From positions 21,331,835 through 21,395,834 of the forward strand of contig NC_003076.8 in the NCBI RefSeq assembly GCF_000001735.4: DNA of 64,000 nt, given 5' to 3'. Both the position numbers and the translations under genes were made by a program. The DNA is from Arabidopsis thaliana. Its lineage: Eukaryota; Streptophyta; Magnoliopsida; Brassicales; Brassicaceae. Numbering within the stretch: the stretch's first letter is position 1; every line of letters begins with the position of its first letter. This document shows, piece after piece, positions 25,529 to 59,108 of this stretch. The notes beneath the pieces were generated by a model. It worked only from the letters and a program-made list of their open reading frames with translations. It was not told the origin of the DNA and did not search any database.

Positions 25529-25573
25529 TACTATAACTTTGATTTTTTTTTTTTTTTTACTATAACTTTGATT
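25529..25573. repeat. T-run flanked by a 16-bp direct repeat
   Basis: TACTATAACTTTGATT at 25529-25544 and again at 25558-25573, separated only by T residues. The layout equals a short poly(T) insertion with target-site duplication. Confidence 0.8.
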
Positions 25574-25710
25574 ACTTTATATATTTTTATCAGATTAGTT
25601 AATTCTATAAATTAACATATATTTTTATTAATTACATATATTATCTTGTTAAAATAATTTCCAGTTTAATTAATTTATTTGCTCCATATTGTAACAAAAA
25701 AATCTTTGAG

Positions 25711-25772
25711 AGATAAATGTATTTTTGTGTTGTTTCAACAAAAAAAAAAAGAAGATAAATCTATTTTTGTGT
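25711..25772. repeat. 22-nt A-rich insertion flanked by 20-bp direct repeats
   Basis: Flanks 25711-25730 and 25753-25772 agree at 18 of 20 bases. Between them lies a TGTTTCAAC head followed by an A-run. Confidence 0.8.
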
Positions 25773-25971
25773 CAAAAATTTGTTATGAGAAATTGTGACA
25801 TATGTCGAAAGAGATTGTGAAATTGAGAGATAAATGTACTTTTATAGATTATTTAACAAAAAAAATCAATTTTCAGTAATATATATAGAGGTTGATGAGC
25901 AAGCGAGTTTGTAATCACATTCTTGTCCATCATCTTCTCTTCTCCTTCCAAACTTTTGAGTTTTTCAAAAA

Positions 25972-26391
25972 ATGGTTAGTTATTTTTCTTAGTAAACCTA
26001 TTTATGTGGTTATATAATAAATTCACTAAAGCTTTAGTTTTATTTCATTGTTTGTAGTCGATGACGATTGTATTCAAGCATCCAGGATATCCCGAAAAAA
26101 AATGGCGAAAAGGATTCAAAATTGCAGGTGGTTTTCCAGGTACAAACCTACACACACCCAACAATTATATTCAACAAACGAATTTTGAACAATGTGAATG
26201 ATTGTCATCTTTTTATTATTATATTAGGAGTTGATGTCATAAGTTGTGGTATCATGGACGACGTATTTGCAGTGAAGGGAGAAAATATTGATCAAGATAA
26301 GTTACTGGAGAAAATAAAAAAGGTTTTAAAATCTGTCGAAATCATTGATCACACCAAATACCCTCCGGATTATTTTTTCTATGATTTCTAA
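25972..26391 (+). CDS. HMA-fold protein, first member of the array
   Basis: Small protein of 82 residues from three exons: 25972-25974 (ATG only), 26058-26139 and 26228-26391. It has the HMA layout: strand SMTIVFKHP, helix region, then GVDVISCGIM, a VKG turn, and LLEKIKKVLKSVEIID. The MxCxxC metal site is absent. The C-terminus is aromatic (DYFFYDF) with no CaaX box. Intron 2 splits the conserved Gly codon in phase 1, as in all members of the array, and the 5' UTR shares a GAGCAAGCGAG block with other members. It is the most diverged copy. Function unknown; annotated relatives are called copper transport family proteins, which the lost CxxC does not support. Confidence 0.75.
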
Positions 26392-27366
26392 TAATGATGT
26401 TTATTTTTCTTTGGGCAAATAATGATGTTCATTTATGTTTTCATATTCTATCAAAGTAATTGGATTTGGTGTAAGTCTTAAGATATATTAGTCCATTCTT
26501 ATAAGTTGTAAGTTATAAACTTTTTGTTCAAGAAGATTGATTTTCCTTGGATGCATAGTCGAGAGTATGCCACTAAAAATAGCTTAACCATATTGGTCTA
26601 CACTGTCACCTTATTTCTTCCTCTATAAACGAATTAAAACGAAAGCATACAACGCTATTATGAGATTTGATTTGGTCTCCCATCAAAGAGACAGATACAT
26701 ACTTTAACAAAAGCTCAAAACAAATTTGAGAGAGGGAATGGTATATGATTACAATTCTTGTTTAAAATATGATTAATAACTTCTTCTAGAAAATGTTTTA
26801 TATGCAAACCAGTCAAACCATCATTTGATTTACATCTATTTAGAAATGTATTTATCTATTTCATCACTAAGAATGTGTTTTATCACCACCTCCAAAATGT
26901 GTTTACAAACAAATGAAGCCAACTACAAATTATTGATCTTGAAATCTGTCGAAATCATTGATCACACTGAATACCCTGCAAATTATTTTTTTTATGATCT
27001 CTAATAATGATGTTTATTTTTATTTTTTACTTTTATTTTTCTGAGGCAAGTAATGATGTTTATTTATGTTTTCATATTCTATAAAAAAAATAATTGGATT
27101 TGGTGTAAGTCTTAAGATATGATCAAATTAAAATATATATTAGTCCATTCTTTATAAGTTATAACCTTTTGATCAAGAAGATTTGATATTCCTTGGATGC
27201 ATCTTTTCTTATAGTCGAGAGTATGCCACTAAAAATAGTTTATCCATATTGTTATACAAATGGTCACAGTCACCTTATTTCTTCCTCTATAAACGAATGA
27301 AAACGAAAGCAAAGACAACTCTATTAAGAGATTTTGGTCTCCCATCAAAGAGACTGATACATATGT
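26320..27366. repeat. Partial tandem duplication of the HMA gene 3' end
   Basis: The last ~20 codons, stop and about 300 bp of 3' flank (about 26325-26706) recur at about 26937-27366. Shared blocks include GAAATCATTGATCACAC, GGATTTGGTGTAAGTCTTAA, AGTCGAGAGTATGCCACTAA and TATTTCTTCCTCTATAAACG. The second copy keeps the stop codon but has no upstream exons, so it is a 3' fragment (pseudogene at 26941-27003). Confidence 0.8.
26390..26434. repeat. 11-nt insertion flanked by 17-bp direct repeats
   Basis: AATAATGATGTTTATTT (26390-26406) and AATAATGATGTTCATTT (26418-26434) flank TTCTTTGGGCA. The related fragment at about 27003-27050 has the same arrangement with a longer core, so the insertion is older than the local duplication. 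Confidence 0.7.
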
Positions 27367-27588
27367 TTAAACTTGAGATCTAACTTATGATAATACACTG
27401 TACATATACCATCCTTAACCCAACAGACTATTTATAACAGTAACAACAACTAAACCGAGTAACATCAGCTTCATCTTCTTCCTATGTACAAACAAAAAAC
27501 CACAACAGAATCTCTGTATTTTGTAGCCATCTGGTTGTTGGCTGGCTCACCTGAGACACTTTTCACAGTTCTCCTCTTCTATTAAACA

Positions 27589-30203: not shown

Positions 30204-30626
30204 GAATAGAATTTGAGGAGATTTTTGTTGAATCTTTTGCTTTTTTGCTCTGTTGGGTTTAAAAAGCTGTGTTGTGTAGGAGAGAAAGAGAGAAGAAATG
30301 TGGCTTATGAGAAAGAAGAAGACGGCAGAGATTTTATTAAAATATTAATAAATTTATAAGCTATAGTTTTTTTGTGTATATGTTGTGTTTCTCGATGAAA
30401 GAAACTTATTCTTGTGATCGTTTTTGAGGTCGGCAAAATAGTTCTTGTGACCTAATATAACGTGCCACGTATTTGGATCTTTATAATAAAGATTTTTCCA
30501 TTTATGTTTTGTATCCGTTTATACCAAAAAAGGGTCTTTTCTTTTTGGTTGAATTTAGGATTGTTTTGTAGTTTAGGTAAAGGTTTTCTAATTGTCCAAA
30601 TTTTATGTTTTGTGGAGCCTTTTTAG

Positions 30627-30671
30627 CTAATGGGCAACTTGCCCGTCAAAAAAAAAAAAACTAATGGGCAA
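30627..30671. repeat. A-rich insertion with TTGCCC head, 11-bp direct repeats
   Basis: CTAATGGGCAA at 30627-30637 and 30661-30671 flank a CTTGCCCGTC head and 13 A. Confidence 0.8.
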
Positions 30672-31389
30672 ATGGGTTATATATTTAGCCCATTATGAAA
30701 CATCGATATGTCAAAAAAAAACTTGGTGATGCCACTGTTTTTGTCTTAATGTTTAGCCCAATCAACAAGACAACAATGCTTTTTTTCTTGGCATCCTTCG
30801 ATTAGAACGATTGATTTGTGAATGAGAATTTAAATGGATGGTTTACATTGGTTTATAAATTTCTTTAACAAATGAACATATTTTAACCTCGCAAATAAAG
30901 GAAGAAATGCAAAAATGTGGCATGTTAAAGAAAGAGATCAACCTTCACTATATCTTTTAGGTTTCTAATTGGTTTCGATGTGAGAACATCTTTGTTGGAT
31001 TGTTGGTAATGCCACGTTCTTAATATTGTTTATACTAATGTTTTGGCGTTGGAGTCTGTTACGTAACTGAATTAATGACATTGGCTAAAGCGCAGTACCA
31101 AAAGTTATAGTATAGATTTGTATAACTATACTGAAAATTTCCTAAATTATGGCGTTTACTAATACTGTAACGCTTCGTATGAGCCCAAGTAAATGACGAT
31201 AATGTCGTGTGGTTTGGGAGTTGTGTGGTTCCTCATGCTTTCACACATTTTTATTAAGGAATGTATAATTTTATTAAAAATCTGAAGCTGAAATTTACGT
31301 ATCAACAACATCTCTATTTATTAATACAAAGAACATTTGTAAACATGATAGCAGCCGTAGATAATATGATTTAAATGATTAAATTAGGG

Positions 31390-31435
31390 GATACAAACTT
31401 ATTGTGAAAAAGAAAAAAAGGCGATACAAACTTAT
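31390..31435. repeat. 20-nt A-rich insertion, 13-bp direct repeats
   Basis: GATACAAACTTAT at 31390-31402 and 31423-31435 flank an A-rich core of 20 bases. Confidence 0.8.
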
Positions 31436-31893
31436 CCCAATTTTATTCATATTTTCATTAAACGAAACGAAATAGAAAACTTATATTGTTATTATTATAT
31501 AGGGTTGATTTAATCGCTCTTATTATCTTATATCGACGAGATGATAAAAGACAAAAGATCTTACATATGCATAATTATGAGTTATGACACGGTATTAGTT
31601 GAAGCTACTAAAGTACTAAACAAAAGAGGCGCAACAACACATTCTAACAATCTATTATATAGAAAGACTCAAACCTGTTTTATTAATCATCTTCATTTAA
31701 GCGTATCAAATTGACTATTTCAGTTTCTTGCTTGGATGGCTTGACTTAACCATTTCATATTCGCTAATTCAAGCAAAGGATATCGTGTATATATATGGGG
31801 CGAAACAAAGGTTAATGAGCAAGCTACGAGGTTGATTTCATATTCCTTTACATCATATCTCCTCAATCATCAAACTTTCTATACTTTCCGAAA

Positions 31894-32400
31894 ATGCCGG
31901 TATGTCTTTTCTTTTAGTTACTTAAAATCTTAGAAAACTAAAGGTACTACTTATACACAATGAACTGTCTAAAGCTTCAAATCTAAATCTTTGCAGGAGA
32001 AAGTTGTATTCAAGTTGGAAGTTTTTGAGGAAAGAATCAAACGAAGAGCTATGAAAGTTGTATGTGACTTTCCAGGTATATTATAATATGTACAAACAAT
32101 GTCTATATATAATATAAGTAATTGAATCTATTTAGGCTTAATACAAATTAAGCAATAATGTTTGTTGTTGTAGGAGTTACTTTGATAGACGTGAAGGAAA
32201 AAGGTAAACTAAAGGTGAATGGAGAATTTGATAAGTTTGAAATGACGAAGAAACTTAAGAAGGTGTATGAATTTGTTGACATTATCGCGGTTGGGCCGGA
32301 TGGAGAACCGGCACAAAATCAGAAGCTGGTTAAAAAGCCTGAACCTAAAGTGAAGAAAGCACCATCTTACCGTGGTTGGAATTTGGGTTTCTTTAAGTGA
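31894..32400 (+). CDS. Single-domain HMA-fold protein without CxxC
   Basis: 103 residues from exons 31894-31899 (ATGCCG), 31997-32075 and 32174-32400. The HMA fold is EKVVFKLEVFEERIKRRAMK, GVTLIDVKEKGKLKVNGEFD, MTKKLKKVYEFVDIIAVGP. The loop that should hold MxCxxC is EVFEERIKRRA, so no canonical metal site. The tail is basic and short (KKPEPKVKKAP... NLGFFK) and has no CaaX, although the close relative at 47080 ends CIIL; the box may have been lost. Intron phases are 0 and 1. Promoter and 3' flank are shared with other members. Confidence 0.8.
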
Positions 32401-32619
32401 TCAATTTGAAGACGTGATCGGTTTATTTTCCATGGACTACTGTATTCTGATGATATTTCATCTCATTTTTTCTGAAAAAATTGTTTGCCCGTTATTTGTA
32501 ATAATTATGTGGCTCTTATATTCATATTGGCGTTATATGTCTTTTGTTAACATTATTAAGTTCTGATCATCCAATTGAAAACAACAAAAACAAAATTTTC
32601 ATCTAAATTGTCTAAGTTA

Positions 32620-32677
32620 AGTAATAGAGTCTCATTGTTGTGTCCAAAAAAAAAGAAGAAGTAAAAGAGTCTCATTG
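32620..32677. repeat. 22-nt A-rich insertion with TGTCC head, 18-bp direct repeats
   Basis: 32620-32637 and 32660-32677 match at 17 of 18 bases (core AGAGTCTCATTG). Between them: TTGTGTCC followed by A and AG-rich sequence. Confidence 0.8.
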
Positions 32678-33541
32678 ATCGCTTTTCATAAGCAACACTT
32701 AATTCTTATCACCAGCAACTAGATGCTCAAACTAATGCTGGCCGAAGTGTCAGAAAAGATAGTCAACGTTTGATAGATTATTGTTATCATTCAACTTCGT
32801 TCCACACTTATTCCAAGTAATTCGTTTATATTATATCGTCAATAATCGTGTTATTATATCACAAGTGTTTCTTTATAATAGGTATTTATGTTTTTTGGCA
32901 CATGCAATAAAATTCATTAAGCCCTGTAATTCTGTCGGTTTTCTTAAATAATAAAAATAAAGTTTAGAAGATTAGTTAAAGCTATATACTAACCTTTCTG
33001 TTACATTTGGATCATCATAACTTATATACTTTTTCATCATATTCATCAGCGTTAATTGTTAGTAAATTCATGGAAATCCATAGAGAATGATTGTGAGTTT
33101 GTGATTCACCAAAGATCTCCATCAATTAGTACTTCAAAAAAACTCGTCTTAAATAGATTTAAAACCATTGCATTGACGAATATCTGAATAATAAAAACGA
33201 TGAAATTGTACATGTATTGGGAAATAGTTTGTTAATCAATACATGGGGTATCAAGAAATTCATAAAGATTTAGGAACAATATTTATGAAATTTCTTTGAT
33301 TTCCTTTTGCACCTCCCATAAATGTTTTCCTTTATACAATATGTTTTATGCATAGGATATTGTATTTCCTAGCTTCGAAGAAATTGTAAGGCTCTTTCGT
33401 ATATTCTTTACGTCTTGAGTGTACTAGTTGTTCTAAATTATACTACAGAATTAACGAAAAACAAAATATCGTATATTTGACTATAACACGGTATTAGTTG
33501 AAGCCACTAAAGTAAGAGACCATGCCAACTTCCATTCTATT

Positions 33542-33629
33542 ATTTAGAAAAACCTTTTTTTGATAATATTCATTTAGAAAGACTTAACTTGAAAAAAAAA
33601 AAAAAAAAAAAAAAAAAAGACTTAACTTG
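33542..33629. repeat. Two adjacent micro-insertions, one a pure poly(A) run
   Basis: First unit: ATTTAGAAA at 33542-33550 and 33572-33580 around a 21-nt T-rich core. Second unit: AAAGACTTAACTTG at 33578-33591 and 33616-33629 around only A. The paralogous flank at about 38380-38420 has the first insertion but a single AAAGACTTAACTTG; the one at about 40535 lacks both. Confidence 0.88.
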
Positions 33630-33864
33630 TTTCACTTTCTACCTTTCTTATTATACAAAGAGACTCAAAACTGTTTGTATTGGTCTTGATGTATAAAATT
33701 GACTATAGTTCTTATGGTTGGACCTAATTAATCATTACTATATTGAGCACTAGTTACAAACAAAACATTGTATAAATAAACGGGGAAGCAAAGGGTTACT
33801 AGTGTGCAATCTGTGTGGTTACAATCATATAACTTCACTGTCCAATCTTTTAAACATTCCAAAT

Positions 33865-35029
33865 ATGCAGGTTCGTTTTTTTTTTTTTTTCAGTTTCTAA
33901 GATTAGTTTTAACTTTTAAGCAACTAAAATTCAATGGTTCTAAAATAGTTTTTGATTATTATACAATGAACTGTTAATATGCAGGTGGAGACAGTTGAAT
34001 TCAAGATGGATGTTTCTGATGAAAACATCAAACGGGAAGTTATGAAAATTGTCTGGATGCCAGGTACACCAACACAAATCTATGGTTGTAGTATTAATGA
34101 AACCAAATAAATCAATAAGTAATCTATCTAAGCTTGAAAGCAATAATATTTGTTGTTGTTAGGAGTTACTTTCGTAGACATCAAGGAAAAAGGTATATTA
34201 AAGGTGAAGGGAAAATATGATAAGATTCAAATGGGGAGCAAACTTCATGAGCTAGATAACTCTGTTGACATTATCAACCAAATGGGAAAAACGGGGCAAT
34301 ATCGCATTCCGAGTTTAACTTCAGTCTACAGTTATTTTACCACTCCAAATATACAGGTTCGTTTAATCGTTTAGAACAAATTTTTCAGATTCCCTTATTT
34401 TTGAGCAATTAAATTTCAAATGGTTCATAGTATATTTTAATAAAATTATTACTTGTATCATGACCTGCTATTTTGCAGGAGGTAGTTGTATTCAAGTTTA
34501 AAGTTCTTGATGAAAAAATGAAACTTGATGCTATGGAAGTTATTTGGGAGTTTTCAGGTACACCAAAACAAACCTATAGTATTATTAATTATGGCTGGTT
34601 ATTCTGTTATACATAATTTTTCATCTATTTAGTCTTTAAAACAAAGCACTATTGTTTTTTTGGTTGTTAGGAATTACTTCAGTAGAGGTGAAGAGAGATA
34701 ATCAACTAGAGGTGAAGGGAGGAGAATTTAATAAAATCGCAATGTCGACGAAGCTAAAGGAAATAGATGAATCTGTTAGCGTTATCATCAAGTCTGGACC
34801 AGATGGACAAGTTGATGTGACAAATATTAAGATCAACAATGCGAGAAAAACTTCACGTGTCCCTGCTCCTGTACCTGTTCGTGCGCCTGCCCCTACGCCT
34901 AAACCTGCCCCTGCGCCTCCTTCTGTTCCTGCGTCTGTGGCTGCTTATGCGAACATGCGTCTTTATGTGCATAAAACACCAATTTGGAAAAAGTGCTTTC
35001 GAGCAATTTCCTGTGGACTTTATCGTTGA
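33865..35029 (+). CDS. Two-domain HMA-fold protein with Pro/Ala-rich tail
   Basis: 238 residues from five exons: 33865-33870 (ATGCAG), 33985-34063, 34163-34356, 34479-34557, 34671-35029. Domain 1 (about residues 1-75) starts VETVEFKMDVSDENIKREVM; domain 2 (from about 94) starts EVVVFKFKVLDEKMKLDAME. Both have the GVTxVDIKEKG / GITSVEVK beta-hairpin but no CxxC. Each domain is two exons with the same phases (0, then 1 in the Gly codon). The linker ends TTPNIQ at the exon 3/4 border. The tail alternates Pro with Ala/Val (residues of about 190-220) and ends SCGLYR, no CaaX. Function unknown. Confidence 0.85.
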
Positions 35030-37009
35030 AATCGGTCACTGGAATGACTGGATAAAGGAGTCAATTAATTTGTTGTAATGAACATTATAAGATATCCTAT
35101 TTACAATTGAAAATCGAAGTTAAATTGAATGAGATATGAATGTACAAAATGGCTAGATTGAAAAACTTTTAAAACTTAGTAAATTTAATTTGAATAGTTC
35201 TGAAATTTGTCAAAAGTCACACATTAGAATAATGAATATTTGTCAATTATCAAAACGTTTAAGGAATACATAATTTCCCTTTGGCTAGTTTGTAAAACGT
35301 CTTTTCACAAACAATCTCCGTGATCTAAAAAATAGCGTTTAAGAATACCTTTTTCCGATTTCTATGAACGTGTATTAGTGAGTTCTGGAGCATGGAGATC
35401 ACTCTCTACATCGTGAAGCATCAGACAAAAGGAAGAACATGATATTTGGGACTCTGATGAGTAAACACGGATTTGTCATCTATCAACTTTGAGTCTAACC
35501 AGCTGATCCTTAAGAATAATGGTGTTTTTATTATAAAATGTATTTCGTTAAATGAGGATTGATCTATCGCTTCCATTGTTGCAATGAATAATAAAAAGCA
35601 AGTTGATTAATATGTGGTCGAATTCTCTAATATTTGGCATGAACCGTTCGAATATGTGAATTATAAGTATATACAAAGACTAATTAGTTTGAACATAATT
35701 CCAAAGTGCAAAATTAGTAAATATCATATACATTTTATACTTACTATATAACACGGTATCATTTGAAGCCACTATTTTTTGTTTAGAAGCTACTAAATTT
35801 ATACGTGAAGTAGAACTAAACTCAAGACGTAAATTTAGTGGCTTCTTATATTATCACCTAATTGATACATCTACTTCACAAATTTTTCCTACAATTTATT
35901 TGATTTGTTTTTCATAATTTAAAGTAACAAATAAAAAAAAATCATACTATTTTACAAGAAAATAAATTATCATAATGAAAACCATTTCTTGGATGGAAAA
36001 TGGTAGGGTTTAAATATAAAATTATGCCTTTATGTAATTTTTATAAACATTAATTACTACAAGTTAAATGCAAGTAAAAAATCTAGAGTAAATGTTACGT
36101 TTAAACAGTTGAATCCTCTCATTAAAGCACAAATTAATATAAGAAATTTCAGTTAAAAATAATGTATTAAGGCCAATTAAAAATCATCAAACGTTGTCTT
36201 TCACTAATTGAGTAAGCAATTTGAAAGTCAGCTCCACTTAAATCCTATTTAAATCCTAATAACTTATGAATCAATAACGTATGAGTTAATAACTTACGAA
36301 ATATGAAATAATATCATGCTCCACTAAACTCTTCTTTACCTAAATTCATTTGTTATAAATAGTAGCTTATCCTTTATTACAATACACATGTCTACCCCTA
36401 ATTGTTTTTTTAATACACATATACTACTATAACTCTTTTTTTTTGGGCAAATATACTACTATAACTTTTATATTTATTCATAAAATATTAAAAATATTTT
36501 ATCAAGATAGATGAATTATTATATTATTTTTAGACTATATCTTACCAAAACCAAAAAGGGAAACATGAAATCAATCTGTCTAGAGATTTTTAAAATTATT
36601 GTCGTGTATGAGCTATAGAGTATGGACAATAATTCAATTGTTGTCAAAATTCTCTATTTATGTGATCTTCTTCAGTTTTTATGGTTTTTTCTTTCTCATT
36701 TTTAGTTGGTGAAACTAAGTTGTTGCAAAAACTTTACTTTCTAATCACTACATTACGGCACCAAGAATGAGTTTGATGAACTGTTTTTCATCGAAAACGG
36801 GTTTACCATATTTTGAGACATGTTCACCCATCGAATGTCAATGAAAGACAGTCCATCGAACTCATCTTTGGTGTCGTAATTAGTAATTGAAAGATCAAGT
36901 TCCTGAAGCAATTTAGTTTCATCAACTATAAAAAGAAAGGAAAAACCATACAAATTTATTTTCTTAAAACTCCTGATGAGAGAAAGAGAGATCATTTCTT
37001 GCGCGACAC
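35030..37009. other. Spacer with orphan copy of the HMA promoter block
   Basis: No gene supported. An ACACGGTATC promoter block at 35751 is present without an intact gene downstream; the pseudogene at 37010 may be its former partner. A micro-insertion lies at 36419-36466. The minus-strand ORF near 36753-37085 resembles nothing I know. Confidence 0.4.
36419..36466. repeat. 16-nt T-run insertion, exact 16-bp direct repeats
   Basis: ATATACTACTATAACT at 36419-36434 and 36451-36466 flank C, nine T and GGGCAA (TTGCCC plus A-run on the other strand). Confidence 0.88.
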
Positions 37010-37345
37010 TCAAGATGGATGTTACAAAACCAGGATTTCCATTTGGAGGGACATATGAGTTCCTTAGTTGCAGGTACACCAACACAAATCTATGGTTGTA
37101 GAATTGATAAAATTAAATAAATGAATAAGTTATTTGAGTTTGAATTGAAGCATTCTTGTTAGGATGTACTCTTTCGTAGACATGAAGGAAAAAAGTATAC
37201 TAATAGGATAGCGGAAAATTTGAAAATATTGAAATGAGCTAGATAAATATGTTGTCATAATCAACACAATGGGAAAACCGGGGAAAAATTACATTTCGAG
37301 TTTAAATGCAGATTACAATTATCTTACCACTCCAAAAAATACAGG
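37010..37345 (+). pseudogene. Degenerate HMA gene remnant
   Basis: A piece of exon 2 (CTCAAGATGGATGTT), the intron 2 start (GGTACACCAACACAAATCTA) and most of exon 3 (from TACTCTTTCGTAGACATGAA to ACCACTCCAAAAAATACAGG) are recognisable by similarity to the genes at 33865 and 40874. The middle of exon 2 is replaced by about 46 bp of unrelated sequence; exon 3 has in-frame stops and a deletion of about 15 bp in its middle; the second domain is absent. It is not translatable as an HMA domain. Confidence 0.8.
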
Positions 37346-38664
37346 TTCTTTCGTTTTTAATAATTTTCAGATTATTTTCCGACAAATGTGAAGTATGCAT
37401 TCAGGCAAAGTGTCAGAAAAGTTAGTCAACGTTTGATAGATTATGTTATTATTCGATTTCGTTCCAAAATAACCACACTTATTCCATCTAATTCGTTTAT
37501 AGTATATGGTTAATCATGTAACCAAACTGAACTCATCATCATATTATAATATCACAAGTGATTCTTTTTAATAGATGTTTTTTTTTTTGCCACATGCAAT
37601 AAAGTTCATTAAGCCTATATGTAATTCTGTCGGTTTTCTTAAATAAGAAAAAAAGGATTAGTATTTTTTTTGTCAAAAAAGTTTAGAAGATTAGTTAGAG
37701 CTTCTAACCTTTCTGTTACATTTGGATCATCATAACTTGTATATATATTTTTTTTGGCCAAAAAAAAAAAACTTATATATTTTCTTGATATTCATCACCG
37801 GTTATTGTTAACAAATTCATGGAGAACCATAGAGAATAATTGTGAGTTTGTGATTCACCAAAACATGTATATCTAGATTTTCATCAACAGCTAATGCTTG
37901 TAAAAGTTCTCCTTGTGATAGAATTGTAACTGTTGCATTGACGAATATCTGAATAATCAAAAACGATGAAATTGTGTGGAAAAAAATAACTTGTTAAGCA
38001 ATACATGTGATAACAAGAAATTCTTAAAGATTTAGGAAAACTAATTAATCGAAAATATAAATATTCAGACCTCTTGGATTTCCTTTTGCACCTATTCCTT
38101 TATACAAAACATCTTTATGTTTTAATTTTTCGTGAATGTAATTATGATGCATTAGATTATAAGAAGATATTATATTTCCTAGCTTCGAAGATATTGTAAG
38201 GTTATTCCGTATATTCTTTACGCTTGAGTTTAGTAGTTGTTCTTAATTATATTATAGAGTTAACGAAAAACAAAATATCGTATATTTTACTATGACACGG
38301 TATTAGTTGAAGCGCACCACTAAAGTAAGAGACCATGCCACCTTCCATTAAATATTTCATTATTTTGAAAACTTTTTTTTTGATAATATTCATTTAGAAA
38401 GACTTAACTTGATTCATTTGTTTCACTTTCTACCTCTCTTGTTATACAAAGAGACTCAAAACTTTTTGTATTGGTCTTGATGTATAAAAATGACTATTTT
38501 GTTTTATAGTTCTTATGATTGGACCTAATTAATCATTACTATATTGAGCACTAGTTACAAACAAAACATTGCATAAATAAACGGGGAAGCAAAGGGTTAC
38601 TACTGTGCAACCTGCGAAGTTACAATCATATTCCTTCATCTCCAGTCTTTTTAACATTCCAAAA
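37346..38664. repeat. Spacer, right copy of the segmental duplication
   Basis: Paralogous to 32745-33864 (see there), including the promoter block at 38295 and the TATA/5' UTR block (CATAAATAAACGGGGAAGC, near 38571). No gene. Micro-insertion at 37735-37783. Confidence 0.8.
37735..37783. repeat. A-rich insertion with GGCC head, absent from the paralogous copy
   Basis: ACTTGTATATATATTTT and ACTTATATATTTT flank TTTTTGGCC plus a run of A. The copy at about 33020 reads straight through CATAACTTATATAC with no insertion. Confidence 0.75.
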
Positions 38665-39665
38665 ATGCAGGTTCGTTTTTTTTTTTTTTTTTTTTCAGTT
38701 TTCTGTTTAGTTTCAAGTCATTAATTTTCAATGGTTATTATTATCTACTGTAGGAATTCTAATATAGTTATCACTTATACAATGAACTTCTAATTTCCAG
38801 GAGGAGACAGTTGAATTCAAGATGGATGTTTCTGATGAAAGCATCAAACGGGAAGCTATGAAAATTGTCTGGATGTTTTCAGGTACACCAACACAAACCT
38901 ATGGTTGTAATATTAACCAAACCAAATAAATCAATCAGAAATTTAATCTATCATGATGTATTTAAGCAATAATATTTGTTGTTGTTAGGAGTTACTTTGG
39001 TAGACATCAAGGAAAAAGGTATATTAAAGGTGAAGGGAAAATTTGATAAGATTGACATGGGGAGCAAACTACATGAGAAAGATAAATCTGTTGACATAAT
39101 CAACCCAAATGGAAACCGGGGGCAATATCGCATTCCGGGTTATACTACAGTCTACAATTATCTAACCACTCCAAAAATACAGGTTCGGTTTTTCAAATTA
39201 TCAAATTATTTTTAAGCAATTAAGCATTAAATGGTTCATATTTGGATTTAATAAAATTATTACTTGTACCATGAATTGCTATTTTGCAGGAGATAGTTGT
39301 ATTCAAGTTTAACGTTCTTGATGAAAAAATCAAACGTGATGTTATGGAAGTTATCTGGGAGTTTTCAGGTACACACCAACACAAACCTATGGTTATATTA
39401 AACCAAATGAATCAAACTATGGCTGGTTCTTTTTACTTAATTTTAATCTATTTAGTCTTTAAAACAAAGCACTATTGTTTTTTGGTTGTTAGGAATTACT
39501 TCGGTAGAGTTGAAGAGAGATCATCAACTAGAGGTGAAGGGAGGAGAATTTAATAAAGTCGCAATGTCGACAAAGCTAAAGCGCATAGATGAATCTGTTA
39601 GCCTTATCATCAACTATACGCGAACAAAGAAATTGGGCTTTAGTTTATACGATCTATATCGATGA
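38665..39665 (+). CDS. Two-domain HMA-fold protein, short tail
   Basis: 177 residues from exons 38665-38670, 38801-38882, 38989-39182, 39290-39368 and 39493-39665. Domain 1 EETVEFKMDVSDESIKREAM, domain 2 EIVVFKFNVLDEKIKRDVME, both without CxxC. The linker ends TTPKIQ. It is the closest paralogue of the gene at 33865 through a segmental duplication, but the Pro/Ala tail is gone: after SVSLIINYTRTKKL the frame ends at YDLYR. The sequence after the stop does not resemble a Pro-rich tail, so the tail was deleted or replaced. No CaaX. Function unknown. Confidence 0.82.
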
Positions 39666-46007: not shown

Positions 46008-46513
46008 GCATGCTCGGTTGCAAAGAAAGGGAGGAATGTCAAAACTAAGCTCTGAAATTTTTGACAAAGAAAAAGAGACTTGTCAAGAATAAAGGTCCAG
46101 CATATTTTTTTCTAGTCTAGTCTATTAGATTTCTTCTAAAAGAGCCAATCTGAGGTGGTGATCGGTTTGACCTCCATGGACTAGAAAAAAAGGTATTGTG
46201 GTGTTTATTACATATTAATTGGCAAAGTATTGTTTTTGGTTAACAATTTGCTCCTCCAATTGTGTTTAGTCGAGTGATATCGTTGTGTTTCTTTAAGATT
46301 TATTAAACATTTGAGTTTTTTTTTTTCTTAATGCAAATCATTATAAATTTAAGCTGTCCCAAGCTCATGACATTTACAACTTGTATTGACTAAAATTCTA
46401 AAATAAAACAGGCAAGCTTATTGTACGGGTATATAACTATATACAGTATAGCCATCAACGTGAAACTAGAGCAACACAAGTTTTTCCTAAAATACTTTCA
46501 TAAATACGATTGG

Positions 46514-46545
<32 letters not shown>

Positions 46546-47079
46546 TATAATCGATCTTTCCTTGTTTAAGTTTCTTGGCAATCCTTGAATTTCCGTTTGA
46601 ATCCATTCTAACTATTTATTATGCGAAACAACTCAAGCAGTTTAAATATTTCAGTTACACAAAATTAGATTATCTTATTTCCTACCTTCGACGAAGATGT
46701 GAGGTTCATTATTAAATCCTTATAGGCTTGACTTAGTCGCTCTTATATTGACGTGATAATTAAAGACAAAAGATATCGCATATATATGGTTTAAAACTGT
46801 GTTAGTTGAAGCTACTATAGTATTAAACTAAAGAAGCGCAGCCACATTCTAACAATCTATTATATAGAAAGACTCAAAACTGTTTCTATGCCGCATAATT
46901 TAATCATACTACATTATCTATTTCATTTTCTTGCTTCGGCGGCTTGACTTAATGTTTTCTATATTCGCTAGCTAAAGAGTATATATGTAGACCTGGAAAC
47001 AAAGTCTATGAGCAAGCAACGAGGTTCCAAATTCATTCCTTTATATCATCTCTCTCCAATCTCGAAACTTTTCCACAAG
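46008..47079. other. Spacer with 3' UTR block, AT microsatellite and promoter block
   Basis: The 3' UTR block GACCTCCATGGACTAG is at about 46170. A pure TA repeat lies at about 46517-46540. The promoter block (GTTAGTTGAAGCTACTA) is at about 46800. No gene seen. Confidence 0.5.
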
Positions 47080-47709
47080 ATGCAGGTTCGTGTATATTTT
47101 GAATTTTGTATAAGTTTTTAGAATAAATTTAAACAAAACAGTAAAATTAAGCTAAAATTAACATAATTATATATCATCATAGTAATAATGATTTTGTTTA
47201 CACTTACACCTACGTATAAAGCTTCAAATATATTTAAATCATGTTTACAGGAGACGGTTGTATTCGAGTGGGGAAGTTTTGACGTAAGAACCAAAGAGAA
47301 AGCTATGAAAGTTGTATGTGAGTTTCCAGGTACATCAACACAATTCAATTCCTACGTTTAACTTTAACCAAATAAACCGATAATGGCAAGAAGTCATAAT
47401 AATTTATTTTTTCTTATTAAGGCTAAAAATAATTAATCAATAATGTTCTTGTTGTTAGGAGTTACTGTGATAGACGTGAAGGAAAGAGGTAAACTAAAAG
47501 TGACTGGACAATTTGATAAGTTTATAATGACGAAGAAACTGAAGAAGATATGTGATTATGTTGACATAACCGCGGTTGGACCGGAGGGACAACCGGCTCA
47601 AAATCGCAATCCGGTTAAGAAACCTGAACCAAAAGTGATTAGGGGGCGACCTTACCCTCCTCAGAAAAAAACTCCAGGCAAAAACTCGGATGAGTGTATC
47701 ATCCTGTGA
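47080..47709 (+). CDS. Prenylated HMA-fold protein (HIPP-like), CaaX CIIL
   Basis: 111 residues from exons 47080-47085, 47251-47329 and 47459-47709. The HMA fold is ETVVFEWGSFDVRTKEKAMK, GVTVIDVKERGKLKVTGQFD, MTKKLKKICDYVDITAVGP. No CxxC in loop 1. The Pro/Lys-rich tail ends DECIIL, a CaaX box; the terminal Leu favours geranylgeranylation (family knowledge), so membrane attachment is likely. It is close to the gene at 31894, which lacks the box. It belongs with the heavy-metal-associated isoprenylated plant proteins, although metal binding is doubtful. Confidence 0.85.
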
Positions 47710-48450: not shown

Positions 48451-49031
48451 ATGCAGCAAAACACTAACGTTGTATTCAAACTGGAAGTCGATGAAAGAAA
48501 GAAAAAGAAAGCTATGAAAATTGTATGTGGATTTTCAGGTACTAACACATCTCAATGTTATACAAAACCCAAAGAAACCAATTATTTTGGTTATACCTGA
48601 TTTAATATTACATATAAGTAGTTTCATTTAGGCTGAACTTTTAAAGCCATTCGTACCATTTTTTCTTGTAAGGGGTTACTTCACTAAACGTGATGGAAGA
48701 AGGGAAACTTACGGTGACTGGAGAATTTGATAACTATGAAATGACGAAGAAACTGAAGAAAATATGTAAACATGTTGCCATAATCGCAGCTGAGCCCATT
48801 AGGGAACCAGAGCAAAACCGCAATCCGGTTACAAGGCGTGAACCCAATAGAGAACCAGAGCAAAACCGCTCTCGGGTTACAAGGCGTGAACCGAGCAGAG
48901 AACCCGAGCCAAACCGCGCTCCACTTGCAAGGCGTGAATCCAGGCCTAGAACTCACTCTCGTCCGTCCATACCTCACGCTCGTCCTTCGAGAGTTCGAGG
49001 CGAAAACTCGGATGGTTGTATCATCATGTAA
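48451..49031 (+). CDS. Prenylated HMA-fold protein, intron 1 missing, CaaX CIIM
   Basis: 148 residues from two exons, 48451-48538 and 48673-49031. Exon 1 reads MQQNTNVVFKLEVDERKKKK without the intron that follows ATGCAG in all neighbours; the phase-1 intron in the Gly codon is kept. HMA core: GVTSLNVMEEGKLTVTGEFD, MTKKLKKICKHVAII; no CxxC. The tail is built of three 16-residue repeats (REPEQNRNPVTRRE and variants), then Arg/Pro/His/Ser-rich sequence, ending DGCIIM, a CaaX box. It is likely prenylated and, with its strongly basic tail, could bind acidic membranes. Function unknown. Confidence 0.85.
48792..48935 (+). repeat. Coding minisatellite, three 48-bp units
   Basis: Units 48792-48839, 48840-48887 and 48888-48935 each encode about EPxREPEQNRxxVTRR. 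They are diverged at several bases, so the expansion is not very recent. Confidence 0.85.
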
Positions 49032-50695
49032 CTGAACATATCTTTGGTCCAAGTTGTTAAGTATCTCTTAAGAACAAATATTAAAAAACAGTTTAAGATA
49101 GCAATCTTTTCGAGCTTCATGCATGAGCTATCATACCCTAGTGATATATTATCGCATCTTCTACTTTCCTTATTTGTAATATTTTTGTGGTGTTTATTAA
49201 ATATTTTCGTTTCCTTTTTTAAAATTCAACTGGTGATTGGGTCATCCATTGTGTTTGTTCAATACGGTCAAATTAAAAAAAGATTTGCACCCTTTCTTTT
49301 TGGGGGTAAAATGTTAAACATATCTTAAAAGGTTGAGTTTCACAAAAAGGTTATCAAGAGTTTTGAGAAGAATAAGAGACAACAGGTACATACAATAGTA
49401 GAAGATCAGTAAAACCTAGCGGTTAATTGTTGTAAAGCTAATCTAGATATGTCAACATGTAAAGCTAAGTTATACGAGGTCATGTAGTATGGTGGTTTTC
49501 TAGTTTACCAGGCTCTCAGTGGACAAAAGTATTTGTCGATTTGATACCATCTTCCTCGTTGTGCGATAGTGTAAGTACGCTCCACAATGGAAATAGAGAA
49601 AAAGAAGGGTAATCAGCTAGAGTTAAATCCATCGGCAAAATCTAACACACATAGTTTTCACTCAATCACTCTAGATTGATTTAATAAGTCATTTATAAAA
49701 GTTCTTAATCCTCAAATTTCTATGGAAATTTTTGTTCATATGATTTAAAATTTTGTACGGAGCTCCAAAGAAATTAAGTTTACTTGGAAGCGAAACTCGA
49801 CTGGATTTGTCAGACGGAAGACTCTTACATTGGATTTAAGCTAGAGAAATTTTTATTGGATCGACTAGATAAGTTGTTCTCTCAAATTGATACTCGATAC
49901 TCAAACTTGTACACAAACTAAACTACAAATGCTACGTTGCATCTGGTATGAATTATGTCTCAAAAGAATCCGACCAGATCCTTTTCAAGGTTACACCCCG
50001 ACAACAAAACCAGCTTGGTAATTTGCCTGGAAACGAGGGAGTTGAAAACGTAATTCTTGGTTCACAATTAATCCTACATTTGGAGACTTAGTGCGATTTA
50101 GTCGCTGCAAATTTGTTGGTTTGTCCATCTTAGTTTATTCAACTTGAATCTCGCTTTCGTGGTCCAACTTTTGATTTGAATAGCATCTCCACAAACAGAA
50201 ATACACATCTTTTATTTCCAGTTTTAAAAAGAATAAATAAGCCTCAAGCAGCTATCAAAATATAATGCAATATTGTTTAAAGAGTTTCATTTTATTCCGT
50301 AGCCATTTGAACAGCATTCGACATATAAATTTTAAGTTTAGCCAACAATTACCGATTCTTGCCAAAAAAAAAAAAAAAAAAATTACCGCTTTAATGTTTA
50401 AAGGACGAAGAAAACGTGTTATTTTAACTTTAAATTATTTTTAAAAGTTTAATAATTATTGTGTATGCATGGAGAAGCAATAAGTTACACCAAGTAACAC
50501 TTGAGACATATACTTGATTTTTTTCCATTTTCAACGTTATAGGAAAATTGGTGTGAATTAGTATATCCTTGTCTTTTTCATGCCCTGCAACTTGCAGCTG
50601 CTTATATAAAGGACTAAGGAAAGGAGGGACACTTTCAAAGCTCATTAGTAATCTAAGACTTTTTCATATTTTCCAAACACTAATTGAAGAAAAAC
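49032..50695. other. Spacer with long non-family segment
   Basis: From about 49330 to 50280 the sequence is less AT-rich than the other spacers and has no match elsewhere in the window. No ORF over 60 codons and no element ends found. It may be a decayed insertion. The micro-insertion at 50346 lies to its right. Confidence 0.4.
50346..50388. repeat. A-run insertion with TTGCC head, 8-bp direct repeats
   Basis: CAATTACCG (50346-50354) and AATTACCG (50381-50388) flank ATTCTTGCC plus a long A-run. Confidence 0.75.
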
Positions 50696-55084: not shown

Positions 55085-55706
55085 ATGACCGCAAAGGTAC
55101 AATACATTTTATCTTCCTTAGAGTATGCGTTAATTAATCGTTATATACACATATACTATTCCACAAGTTCTAACTATATATATAACTATCACTTTTTTTA
55201 CATTGAAACTATGCAATAAGCCAAACTGATTTCTGATTTGTAATGACAGAACGCTGTGTTGCAATTGAGTATTCACGAGGAGAGAACCAGGAAGAAAGCG
55301 CTTGTCACCGTTTCTCGATTTTCAGGTATCTTTTATAAAATTTACATTAGAAATGTATAATATGATACTATTGGGAAAATAAACTTGTATTAATAATTTG
55401 ATTTTCTTAATAGGAGTTACTTCGATAACAATGGACAAAAGTGGGAAAATGACAATAGTTGGAGAAGTTGATGTACCAGCTGTCGTGATGAAGCTAAGGA
55501 AGCTATGTAACACAGAGATCGTTTCAGTCGATGATGTTAAACCACCTGTTAAAAAGCCTGAACCTGAGAAACCAGCTGAATCTATTGCATATCCTGTTCC
55601 GATGAACTACGCGTACCAATTCAATCCTGCCTATGCAAATTCTTACTATCATCAACCATACGGAAATTGTAGAGTGGTAGACGAACCAAATTGTGTGATT
55701 ATGTGA
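55085..55706 (+). CDS. Prenylated HMA-fold protein (HIPP-like), CaaX CVIM
   Basis: 126 residues from exons 55085-55096 (MTAK), 55250-55325 and 55414-55706. It is highly similar to its neighbour at 52300: NAVLQLSIHEERTRKKALVT, GVTSITMDKSGKMTIVGEVD, VVMKLRKLCNTEIVSVDDV. The Pro/Ala repeat part of the tail is shorter (KKPEPEKPAES), the Tyr-rich end is kept (FNPAYANSYYHQPYGN) and the protein ends PNCVIM. No CxxC. Probably At5g52760, from memory. Confidence 0.88.
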
Positions 55707-57777
55707 TTGTTCTAGTGTTATTTCAATTAATGTTCAGTTATTTAACACTTATAGTTTTGATAGAAATATGTAATTTTTTCTTAGATACTGTTGTAATATG
55801 TAATTTTTTGTCATCGTTGTAATATACATTTCTCTTGCCAAATAAATCAATTTTGTATGACAAAATTAATCTTAATACGCTTTATTAACTTTTACTCTTA
55901 ATCATTTAGTAGTAATAATTAGTTTTGTTTTCACAAATAGTTTCATTTGCTTCTTGTTGTCTCCTATGCTGAATATATTCTACATTTTGTCTCAAGCTAG
56001 TAGTATACTAATCGATATGTTGCGAGGGATTGGTAATTGGTTGAATGGAATCATAATTAATATTGGATACCAATTAGATAGTATATCTACACACATAGTT
56101 ACGTCGCTCTCTACTTCTTCTTGACTCATGAACTTCAAGAATCCAGATCGTTCACGTAACACATTCGATTGTTCTAAATAAATAGAAATTTGAACTATTA
56201 GCGAGTGTCATAATAATGGAGAGAGTCAAGATCCGAAAAGTCTTGTACAACAAAACGAAACAATAATAAAAGACCAAGTCTAGGGTGACGTGGAGGGTCC
56301 ACATGTGGAATGGTGCTTACGAGGATATTTCGTTTCTTGACCCTGATATGAAAAATTATTCTAAGTCTTTTTTTTTTTGCCTTTTTACGACGATTTGTGA
56401 CATCCATGTAGACGTGCGATCGGCCATAGATTAGGTTAAATTATTCAAGTCTTCTTTCCAAAATAACTTTAATATGAATCGCCAAAATCTTAAAACTTTA
56501 GATTTATGAATGTGCTGGTTGCGAAATACAAATCTTGTGTTACTTAATTAATGTTATGTAGACAAGAAATTTAGATGAAAAATCATAATTTGGTAGTAGT
56601 TTTGAAATATAAACTAAAAACATTAACAAAAGATAGAATGTTTTACTTTTAGGTGGTCTGTTTGTTGGATTGTGAACCTTTTTAAACGTCTTTTTTTTTT
56701 TTTTGCTACACTAGTACTTTAATATTTGTCAAAATCTTGTGTTATATTATTCGAGTAACTAAGTTCTAAATCCTGGCTCACAAAATGAAAATTATTAAAA
56801 GAGCTCACTGGTATGTGTGTTTCAAAATAGTGTTTATAATGTCCACTTGGATTTTTTGGAATAACATTATATGTTAAAATCCAATGGCTTAAAAAATATC
56901 AAATCCTTTACTGGACTTGTCTCTTAGTTATATGAATTTGCAATCAAACATAATCTTGTGTTATTCAACTATTATTTTACAATCTTTGTCAAAATATTAT
57001 GTTAATTCAAAGATTTATGATATGTGAATCTTAGCTAAAGTTGTATTGGGAAAATAGCTACGTTTCAAGGACATGTTTCCGATAAGCCCTCTAGAGCCCA
57101 AAATCGCTATATACTTGACCGTGAGGGTTTCATGTCCGCACATCTCCCTCCTTTATAAGATACAAAAGAACCGTTATGACTTCTATCTCGGTTTGATTTT
57201 GATTTCAGCTTTTGTTGCTATGTGATACAACTTTTCCAACACTCTACCAATAAATGGTCCCTGCAGTACACGAAGGATTCTAAATACTGCACTTCCTTTT
57301 GATTTCGGTACACCGAAATTATATTTTCAACCAACTCGTGAAAAATACTCAAAACAAATTGATAAAGATTTACTAGTCTAGTCATTTTTGTAGTCATTCG
57401 AAATGCTATTGATATGTAAAAATTCACAATGCACAATGCTTGTGGGTTATATATTTAATAAATAAGTGCAAATTCCTACGTAAATTTATATTTAAACAGA
57501 TATCGTTGGACGCAATTGTCATCAAGAAGTGTTAGAAGATCTCGGAGATTACGAGATGGAACTGGTCATATTTCCATATTGTTATATAGACAAGTTAACA
57601 TTTGTGTAATATAGCCTTATTGTTAATTAGGTAGATTTAACATATATATGTCAAAAACATGCTAATCAAGTTATAACTTTGTATAAATAAGTCTATTAGG
57701 GCTAATAACTTCTTCGCTATCTCAATATAGTCCTCTCTTTGGAAATTTCTTAAGCTTTTCCATAGTTTTCTAGAGCG
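55707..57777. repeat. Spacer holding the end of unit 2 and start of unit 3
   Basis: 56100-56400 pairs with 53230-53560. 57170-57777 pairs with 51790-52299 and 54650-55084, with extra sequence near 57540-57690 not seen in the others. No gene seen. Confidence 0.6.
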
Positions 57778-58392
57778 ATGGCCGCGAAGGTACACCCCTT
57801 TATCTCGTTTTATCTATCTTTAAATAATTATGCGTTGATTAATCATTCTATATTTATATATGTACTATTTAACTATTGTTAATATAGTAAGTCGATTATA
57901 TGCAAATAGGCATACTAATCTCTGGTTTGAAATGTCAGAAAGCTGTGTTGCAATTGGGTATCCCCGAGGAGAAAATCAGAATGAAAGTTTTGTGACCGTT
58001 GCAGGATTTACAGGTATCTTTGTAAGTTACTTTTCTAAATTTGTAGTATTGATATTGTGGGGGAAAAAAAGTTTATTCATGAACTTTAATTTTTAGTATA
58101 GGTGTTACTTCGATAACAATAGATGACAAAACCGGGAAACTGACGGTAGTGGGAGACATTGATGTACCAATTATCGTGATGAAGCTAAGGAAGCTATGTA
58201 AGACAGAGATTATTTCGGTAGATGCTGTTAAACCACCTGAGAAAAAGCCTGAACCGGAGAAACCGGCTCCACCTAAACCGAGTGAAAAGATTGCATCTCC
58301 GGTTCCGATGAACTTAGCAGAACGAGTACAATCCTGCCTATGCCTATTCTTCTGATTCTTACCATCAACCAAATACTTGTGTGATTATGTGA
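57778..58392 (+). pseudogene. Decaying third copy of the CVIM HMA gene
   Basis: Exons by homology: 57778-57789 (MAAK), 57939-58013 and 58102-58392. Exon 2 is 75 nt in place of 76, and the reading frame meets a TGA after IRMKVL. In exon 3 the HMA core is intact (GVTSITIDDKTGKLTVVGDI, IVMKLRKLCKTEIISVDAV), but a second frame change after SPVPMN moves NPAYAYSSDSYHQPNTCVIM into another frame. So both the N-terminus and the CaaX are lost from the core frame. A shorter protein from an internal start is possible but would lack the first strand and helix. Confidence 0.8.
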
Positions 58393-59108
58393 TTTTTCTA
58401 GAGTTATTTCACTAATCTTAATATATGAACACATAAATTAGTTAATTTTGATGGAAGAGTACTGTAATTTCTGTATGATAAAAATGATGTTAAGTTGTGT
58501 TAAGCCGATACTATCATGCCTATGCAAATTTTTTTTTTTTTTTTTTGCCTATGCAAATTTTGACATTCCTCAGAAGATGTTAGTTGGAAAGTAAATAGAA
58601 AAATATCAATATCTGCATTACAAAGTTGATCTTAAATTGTTAACTTTCACTTTCAATCGTCTAGTAAAATTAGGTCCTTTTTCCCTCACGTACATAGACT
58701 TTTCTCCTATGCTGAATATATTCAATAATTTGTAAAACCGATCTCCTTATACTACCACTAGGCCACCATCCCTTTGGTAGATATCTAATAATTTGTTAGA
58801 GTTAGTTCTAAACTTGTAGGCAATGTTACGAGGAATTGGTTGATTCGGTTCACAATTTGGATACAAATTCGATAAAAATATATATTCTCACACATACACA
58901 GAATCATTTGCCACTAATTTTTGTGGACTGGCGAACATTAAAGCCACTTAAATTTTTTATATTAGCAGCATTGTCGTCTTGATGGTTTATTGTAGGAGTT
59001 CAAAATTTTGTAAGTATAAACTCTAAAGTGAATGTGGTAGCCAGCTTAAAAGTTTTTATGAGACTTTCCCAAAGAAAAATCAAGATTATTATCATTAATA
59101 CATTACCA
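58393..59108. other. Spacer after the HMA array
   Basis: AT-rich; the end of the third tandem unit fades near 58900. A T-run micro-insertion lies at 58517-58560. No gene seen. Confidence 0.45.
58517..58560. repeat. T-run flanked by 15-bp direct repeats
   Basis: TGCCTATGCAAATTT at 58517-58531 and 58546-58560 with only T between them. The string TGCCTATGCAAATT also occurs in the tails of the neighbouring HMA genes (52888, 55629). Confidence 0.75.

Follow-up and report, generated by a model that had tools for sequence, protein, structure and literature searches.

How does a run of A come to lie between two copies of the same short sequence? The window, a stretch of 64,000 nucleotides of the Arabidopsis thaliana genome that was analysed at its full length, raises this question repeatedly. 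A preliminary description had listed 13 stretches in which a direct repeat is followed by a core consisting almost entirely of A (or T) and by the repeat again. Re-reading of the sequence confirmed this layout at all 13 stretches, which we call stubs here (Table 1). At the stretch originally given as 31390-31435 the layout holds as described, but the first repeat copy starts 4 bp earlier. The candidate at 33542-33580 is probably due to chance, since its repeat is only 9 bp long and its A-run does not abut a repeat copy. One stub, at position 27005, is absent from the preliminary list. It is a paralogue of the stub at 26390; the two look like a single insertion inherited by two duplicated segments, and thus this pair apparently offers no empty-site comparison.

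Table 1. Stubs and candidate stubs in the window. Repeat scores were calculated with +1 for a match and −2 for a mismatch.
Position	Strand	Feature	Repeat score
25529-25573	-	poly(A)-only stub flanked by two TACTATAACTTTGATT copies	16
25711-25772	+	stub TGTTTCAAC-A11GA, duplication of 20 bp with 1 mismatch	17
26390-26434	-	older stub TGCCC-AAAGAA...	14
27005-27065	-	stub CTTGCCTCAG + A-rich core	
30627-30671	+	stub CTTGCCCGTC-A13, duplication of 11 bp	11
31386-31435	+	stub TGTG-A5GA7, duplication AGGGGATACAAACTTAT / AGGCGATACAAACTTAT	13
32620-32677	+	stub TTGTGTCC-A9GAAGA, duplication of ~18 bp with 1 mismatch	15
33542-33580	-	weak candidate, 9-bp repeat; GGTT instead of a repeat copy after the A-run	9
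33578-33629	+	A24-27 flanked by two AAAGACTTAACTTG copies	14
36419-36466	-	stub TTGCCC-A9G, perfect duplication of 16 bp	16
37735-37783	+	stub (T)n-GGCC-A12	10
44692-44740	-	stub TGCTC-A7CAAACAAA	12
50346-50388	+	stub TTCTTGCC-A(n), duplication AATTACCG, repeat only 8 bp	8
58517-58560	-	poly(A)-only stub, perfect duplication of 15 bp	15

The Layout Is Enriched Over Chance

To treat all sequences alike, a uniform detector was used that reports A-tracts of at least 8 nucleotides flanked by a repeat with a score of at least 10. The site at 50346-50388 falls below this threshold, but its core is good. The detector found 15 matches among the 165 A-tracts of the window, as against 0-1 in each order-3 Markov shuffle of it (30 shuffles: no match in 24, one match in six), so the layout passes the comparison with shuffled sequence that the preliminary description had proposed as a check. 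Some of the detector matches sit within locally repetitive DNA.

The sample was then widened to 264 kb (578 tracts), made up of the window and twenty 10-kb pieces evenly spaced on contig 1. Here, 40 matches were detected, compared to 1.3 on average when the left and right flanks were re-paired (ten times), which shows that the layout is not peculiar to the window. Extrapolation from these data gives a number of stubs in the genome on the order of 10^4. The target duplications of the 40 matches are 10-22 bp long, a variable length as in target-primed reverse transcription (TPRT) of the L1 type.

The Insertions Have a Polarity

The poly(A) abuts the downstream target copy, and the insertions have a polarity, as is expected for L1-type TPRT. 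A head of at least 3 nucleotides upstream of the A-run is present in 29 of the 40 matches and in 7 of the 20 matches in the mirror arrangement (Fisher p = 0.011); many of the mirrored matches are inserts of the first set viewed from the opposite side. A C directly precedes the A-run in 25/40 matches compared to 167/499 tracts without a repeat (p = 0.0004). Concerning the target, for which a TT/AAAA-like sequence is expected, A is found at +1 in 27/40 matches, a count inflated by the ambiguity of the A-tail, and T at −1 in 18/40. Part of the A-richness at which the duplications begin stems from this ambiguity.

A Common Head Is Identical to the 3′ End of Several LINEs

A shared head motif, also proposed earlier, was confirmed genome-wide: TTTGYCC-A10 occurs 123 times and the reversed pattern once. 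With a shorter A-run (TTTGYCC-A6) the numbers are 310 and 26, and with a relaxed head (TTTGNNC-A10) 355 and 84. Among the first 30 TTTGYCC-A10 loci in genome order, 24 are clear bare stubs, consisting of target duplication, TTTGYCC, A-run and target duplication; four are weak (L029, L040, L041, L054), one contains a longer insert (L035, 547 nucleotides) and L028 was left unclassed. In 23 of the 30 loci a duplication with a score of at least 8 ends 0-5 nucleotides from TTTG, in 13 of these 23 exactly at TTTG; L031, the 24th clear stub, fits with an overlap at T. At seven of the 13 exact junctions at least one T overlaps, a possible microhomology at the 5′ junction in a T-rich background.

This head is identical to the 3′ end of several LINEs. 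One LINE RNase H ORF could be read to its TAG stop, which is followed by 18 nucleotides and TTTTGTCC-A10. Of the 100 listed TTTGYCC-A10 places, six are located on the same strand as a match to LINE RNase H and 22-62 nucleotides beyond the point where this match ends; when the ORF end is extrapolated to the C-terminus of the query, TTTGYCC-A10 lies 14-26 nucleotides beyond it in the six LINE copies. Their RNase H sequences are 36-100% identical to one of them, and RVT_3 was found in three LINE C-termini. Other LINEs end differently. Of the 78 matches to LINE RNase H on contigs 1-4, just six end in a listed TTTGYCC-A10, a count that covers A10 tails only. L061 and L064 have the ends TTTGACGT and TTTGTTGG, respectively, and no LINE poly(A) end is present in the 401 bases of L063 and of L065. 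The sequence of L062 breaks off after the initial As of what may be a tail; L062, L063 and L065 were left out of the comparison. No LINE domain was evident in the three forward frames of L035, so L035 and its diverged copy at L059 were rejected as coding LINEs; the assignment to LINEs is based on L060 and the ends adjacent to RNase H.

A 27-nucleotide LINE 3′ end was found only three times with up to three mismatches (control: 0), compared to the 310 occurrences of TTTGYCC-A6; this search covers one LINE subfamily and misses copies extending by a few bases. Judged from these sequences, LINE RNA is the likely template of the TTTGYCC stubs. Among A-tract stubs as a whole, those with an exact TTTGYCC head are a minority: 310 places with A6 (about 26 of them expected by chance) compared to the extrapolated 10^4. 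Other heads vary or are absent, as in the poly(A)-only stubs, and the template of those stubs can therefore not be named.

Stubs as Probable Ultra-Short LINE Retroinsertions

Layout, polarity, common head and empty paralogous sites (see below) make it highly probable that the stubs are ultra-short retroinsertions, made by the L1-type LINEs of the genome itself through target-primed reverse transcription. The LINE endonuclease would nick an A/T-rich target, and the 3′ end freed in this way would pair with the poly(A) of a LINE RNA and act as primer. The reverse transcriptase would then copy the tail and, in most cases, 0-10 nucleotides of the adjoining 3′ UTR. In a frequent class the copied UTR part would be UUUGYCC, after which copying would halt. 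After cleavage of the second strand some 10-20 bp away and filling of the gap, the product would consist of the target duplication, the 3′-terminal LINE stub, poly(A) and the second target copy. The poly(A)-only stubs and those with other heads presumably share the origin of the TTTGYCC stubs. Less in keeping with this reading are "heads" of 15-27 nucleotides, seen in 6/40 matches.

The preliminary description had suggested that very short templates with an A-tail were inserted by target priming. The target-primed, A-tailed part is borne out by the polarity, the common head, its identity to LINE ends and the empty paralogues, while ordinary LINE RNA of which a few nucleotides are copied is a likelier template than a short RNA. 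The same machinery could have used a short polyadenylated RNA starting with UUUGYCC, either a decay fragment or an independent small RNA, and copied it to its 5′ end, which would account for the precise TTTG edge without any stop. We know of no polyadenylated small RNA that begins with UUUGYCC. Head lengths in the unbiased sample varied, with many values between 0 and 10 nucleotides, as expected from stopping and not from a single RNA end. We therefore regard a short template as unlikely, and copying was probably aborted rather than begun on an RNA fragment.

A second possibility raised in the preliminary description was the repair of staggered breaks. Here, filling in of the ends would duplicate a short stretch in tandem, and an A-rich filler, either untemplated or captured, would be joined in between. 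Short tandem duplications of such an origin are well established (PMC8355091), and the poly(A)-only cores at 25529 and 58517 carry no template signature. Filler, however, provides no cause for the orientation of the A-strand or for a recurring 5′ heptamer, and it predicts neither the polarity nor the common head (123 compared to 1), nor the identity of this head to LINE 3′ ends beside RNase H ORFs. Break repair was consequently rejected as the main account and is very improbable.

Slippage, by which A-runs would lengthen between imperfect repeats that existed beforehand, had already been doubted in the preliminary description. Paralogues from the same genome served as pre-insertion comparison. 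At 44692 the core is missing in all six junction-spanning paralogues within the window, and the alignment shows a single target copy. For 37735 one paralogue was found (at about 32.9-33.1 kb), for which the alignment likewise shows a single target copy and the absence of the core. The pre-insertion state, with one target copy and no insert, is thus seen at both sites. The site at 33578 fits less cleanly: in the alignment its three paralogues lack the A-run but already have a second repeat-like copy, as slippage would predict, so that here the layout stands and the reading as an insertion is ambiguous. Elsewhere, matches that span the junction exist for six of 27 stub sites, and all seven matches are of empty-site length (judged from lengths, not alignments), as is L023+5215. 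Single-copy empty sites at most testable sites, together with a common head that slippage is unable to create, uphold the earlier objection and leave slippage a highly improbable origin. Trimming of full or longer LINE or SINE insertions to stubs by internal deletion is hardly credible and was rejected as the main account owing to the sharp 5′ edge: in one case, L035 (with its copy at L059), a longer insert does share this end, but random deletions would scatter the 5′ edges and would in many cases take a repeat copy with them, whereas 13 of the 23 stubs start precisely at TTTG and have an intact duplication, and bare stubs already lie between perfect duplications (L032, L047, L048).

Possible Reasons for the Early Stop

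If the stubs are ultra-short LINE retroinsertions, copying would have ended very early. LINE enzymes are described as highly processive in vitro (PMC4859970), which makes a built-in early stop unexpected. No stable RNA hairpin that could explain the stop was found in four folded LINE or LINE-like ends; three of them were no better than shuffles, and the fourth was slightly more stable (z = −1.86). A 5′ edge as sharp as that at UUUG suggests that the 3′-terminal motif is bound, by the enzyme itself or by some other factor, and that this blocks further copying. Tentatively, UUUGYCC may be a 3′-terminal recognition element of a set of LINEs, to which the reverse transcriptase or a partner stays clamped, so that most priming events abort and leave about 10^4 abortive fossils; we see this as possible rather than probable. 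UUUGYCC is retained between LINE copies whose RNase H is only 36% identical.

If the proposed origin is true, the stubs mark where the LINE machinery began its work and not just its successes, so that LINE targeting and failed retrotransposition could be mapped densely from them. Part of the A-tracts and of the small insertions with duplicated flanks in the genome would also be accounted for, and the stubs would point to a specific 3′-terminal RNA motif. Because they are so short, they are probably missed by repeat libraries. Fewer than 1,500 LINE copies are given for Arabidopsis (PMC2848041); should the motif act as a clamp, the fossils of abortive priming would be several times as numerous. 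With such a clamp, plants would have their own counterpart of abortive initiation; it would also contradict the proposal that LINEs and SINEs of Arabidopsis are linked via poly(A) alone.

Comparison With Known Systems

The components of the proposed process are already known. In literature searches covering titles and abstract openings of part of the open-licence literature, we found no description of plant stubs of this kind, nor of their abundance of about 10^4 or the sharp stop at UUUG. The short tandem duplications of break repair (PMC8355091) resemble the stubs in their short direct duplications, but poly(A), polarity and a common head are not expected from them. Arabidopsis SINEs (RAthE/SB) also end in poly(A) and are presumed to be LINE-driven; they are described as without similarity to the LINE of this species (PMC3747384). 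Unlike them, the stubs have no tRNA-derived body, and membership in a SINE family was rejected, since head and A-run are too short for a tRNA-, 5S- or 7SL-derived body with a pol III promoter. The Sadhu retroposons of Arabidopsis share poly(A), duplications (7-16 bp) and a T before an A-rich target, but they are longer and have a sequence of their own, while the stubs, with a few nucleotides and poly(A), are too short for a Sadhu body (PMC2848041).

A human Alu in SERPINC1, listed in a table as "Shortest Alu insertion" and apparently consisting of 6 nucleotides of Alu and 40 nucleotides of poly(A), resembles the stubs in having few element nucleotides and poly(A) (PMC4859970). It is a lone disease case with a 1.4-kb deletion, for which that source gives no duplication, whereas the stubs are recurrent and have duplications. 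A close likeness is to 5′-truncated insertions of L1-clade LINEs, which have the same 10-22 bp duplication, poly(A) abutting the second copy, a retained 3′ end and a lost 5′ end. Truncated LINE copies are reported to be 100-1,000 bp long (PMC3747384); the stubs differ from the usual ones in containing mostly 0-10 nucleotides of the element, and their TTTGYCC class is sharply edged at UUUG.

Repeat-Flanked A-Runs Exceed Chance

On re-reading the sequence, all 13 stretches that the preliminary description had presented as A/T cores between direct repeats read as described there. A uniform detector, set to require an A-tract no shorter than 8 and a repeat score no lower than 10, matched 15 of the window's 165 A-tracts. 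The 30 order-3 Markov shuffles, carried out on 4-kb pieces, each yielded no match or a single one, which confirms the proposed enrichment over shuffled sequence. A wider sample, consisting of the window and twenty 10-kb pieces evenly spaced along contig 1, had 578 tracts and gave 40 matches, whereas ten re-pairings of left with right flanks averaged 1.3; an exact-match variant gave 16 repeats of at least 9 bp against 0.7 (200 A-runs). Since matches also occur in the contig 1 samples, the layout is not peculiar to the window. These 200 kb contain 25 matches, a few of which overlap or lie in locally repetitive DNA. The density of such matches, here read as stubs (target duplication, short head if any, A-run, second duplication copy), is roughly 100–125 per Mb, that is, of the order of 10^4 genome-wide when extrapolated from this one chromosome.

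Coordinates of the window, sites and regions (bare numbers are window positions; L numbers denote individual genomic stretches read)
Feature	Position	Observation
Window	contig 5, 21,331,835-21,395,834	from a 119.66-Mb genome, 7 contigs
Site	44692	core absent in 6/6 spanning paralogues
Site	37735	core absent in 1/1 spanning paralogue
Site	33578	three paralogues without the A-run
Sites	26390 and 27005	appear to have in common one insertion older than their duplication
Detector match	43687	also has paralogues
Array of diverged paralogous segments	31500-47400	~67-86% identical; internal empty-site control
Short direct repeats	48804-48938	GAACCAGAGCAAAACCGC type
Nested duplications	L019, about 2370-2800	~60-bp stretch seemingly repeated, A-runs between and after copies; several detector matches inside
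TTTGTCC-A site L041	C1:12905153-12905318	right flank also matches six other places, each match beginning at the junction, as though the site bordered a repeat; these six left out of the empty-site count
Site	L023+5215	among 37 other sites, empty by length (125 for 125, 89%)
Site	L020-8242	shorter, empty-like matching stretch (115 for 130)
Site	L023+5505	junction spanned by 12 bases only

The Inserts Are Oriented and Often Share a Head

The analysis shows real, oriented insertions with target duplications. A head of at least 3 nt between the first duplication copy and the A-run is present in 29 of 40 matches (3–12 nt in 23 of these) and in 7 of 20 matches in mirrored sequence (p 0.011), most of the mirrored matches being the very inserts of the first count viewed from the opposite side. 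C directly precedes the A-run in 25/40 matches versus 167/499 repeat-less tracts. Several sample heads are alike (TTGCCC, TTTGTCC, CTTTTGCTC, CTTTGCC, TTTGAAC, CTTTAGC, TTGTGTCC), others show no resemblance (TGTG, TCTT, AGACG), and some matches are headless. Genome-wide, TTTGYCC-A10 occurs 123 times and the reversed pattern once, so the suggested shared head motif is borne out; the counts for TTTGYCC-A6 and TTTGNNC-A10 are 310 and 355, against 26 and 84 in the controls.

Reading covered the first 30 TTTGYCC-A10 places along the genome, which all lie on contig 1. On recount 24 are clear stubs: 23 by score and L031, which fits clearly once the T-overlap is counted. In 23 of the 30 places a duplication scoring at least 8 ends 0–5 nt from TTTG, in 13 of them exactly there. 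Four places are weak stubs (L029, L040, L041, L054), and at L028 no duplication was seen. The A-runs are 10–21 nt long (median 13). One place, L035, carries an insert of 547 nt flanked by a 17-bp duplication; none of its three forward frames shows an evident coding domain. The L035 relative L059 (84% identity) seems, judged by eye, to have inserted separately and to have a duplication of its own. The two are diverged copies of a retroposon-like insert of ~500–550 nt, both ending in TTTGCCC followed by an A-run.

Paralogues Contain Empty Sites

For 27 stub sites the two flanks were joined and looked for across the genome, with match lengths rather than alignments compared. For six sites (L034, L037, L044, L048, L049, L055), seven other places span the junction with 73–94% identity, each differing by at most 4 nt from the joined-flank length, and these seven places are therefore empty. 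The possibility that related sites always carry both repeats and core was thus tried on within-genome paralogues, which are empty by length at these six sites and by alignment at 44692 and 37735. Site 33578 is ambiguous: the A-run is absent from the paralogues but a second repeat-like copy is already there, so that insertion and growth between old repeats are indistinguishable at this site.

Several LINE 3′ Ends Carry the Head

Inserts of the TTTGYCC class correspond to a LINE 3′ end. One TTTGTCC-A10 is located ~740 bp beyond a zf-RVT match, and this LINE end (L060) shows, in order, an open RNase H frame (RVT_3 match), a TAG stop, 18 nt, TTTTGTCC and A10. Among 100 TTTGYCC-A10 places listed, six sit 22–62 nt past the matched end of an L060-type protein (14–26 nt after extrapolation to the query C-terminus), all six on the same strand; RNase H identity to the L060 protein is 100, 85, 63, 38, 36, and 36%. 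All 104 genome matches of this protein were compared with the listed places, six being found from 56 and none from the other 48. As the listed places reach only contig 4, the denominator is the 78 protein matches on contigs 1–4: the motif with tails of at least A10 is found at 6/78, and most LINE copies there are without it.

Two further LINE ends beside RNase H frames (L061, L064) read TTTGACGT-A15 and TTTGTTGG-A6CA8, showing that TTTGYCC is not universal among LINE ends. Common to all three are TTTG and a 3′ UTR of 18–26 nt between RNase H stop and poly(A). The 27-nt L060 end pattern, allowing up to 3 mismatches, occurs three times in the genome (control: 0), and thus few copies of this subfamily extend past the head.

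Origin of the Stubs

Target-primed insertion is well established, as are 5′ truncation and target duplications. The stubs are very probably ultra-short retroinsertions made by the genome's own L1-type LINEs; our confidence is lowered slightly by the figures of 24 clear stubs and 6/78 LINE matches with the motif. Target-primed reverse transcription halting within ~0–10 nt of the UTR would have made the TTTGYCC stubs, and the poly(A)-only and other-headed ones may be of like origin. The main alternative is a short template RNA instead of halted copying of LINE RNA. The far-side edge of the TTTGYCC class at UUUG is sharp, in a set that was picked by motif and excludes shorter heads by design. No predicted hairpin explains a stop at UUUG; our favoured guess is a protein bound at the 3′-terminal motif. 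More tentatively, and rather doubtfully, UUUGYCC might be a 3′-terminal LINE recognition element at which the enzyme or a partner is clamped, most priming being aborted and leaving fossil events of the order of 10^4.

Among the matches listed in a literature search, no description of a genome-wide class of plant LINE stubs was found. L1-like retrocopies are reported in Arabidopsis (PMC4838847), and a very short Alu insertion is on record, with low processivity considered unlikely as the cause of short inserts (PMC4859970). Arabidopsis SINEs are described as lacking similarity to the plant's LINE, with a link through poly(A) proposed (PMC3747384). Sadhu retroposons are described as having LINE-like targets (PMC2848041).
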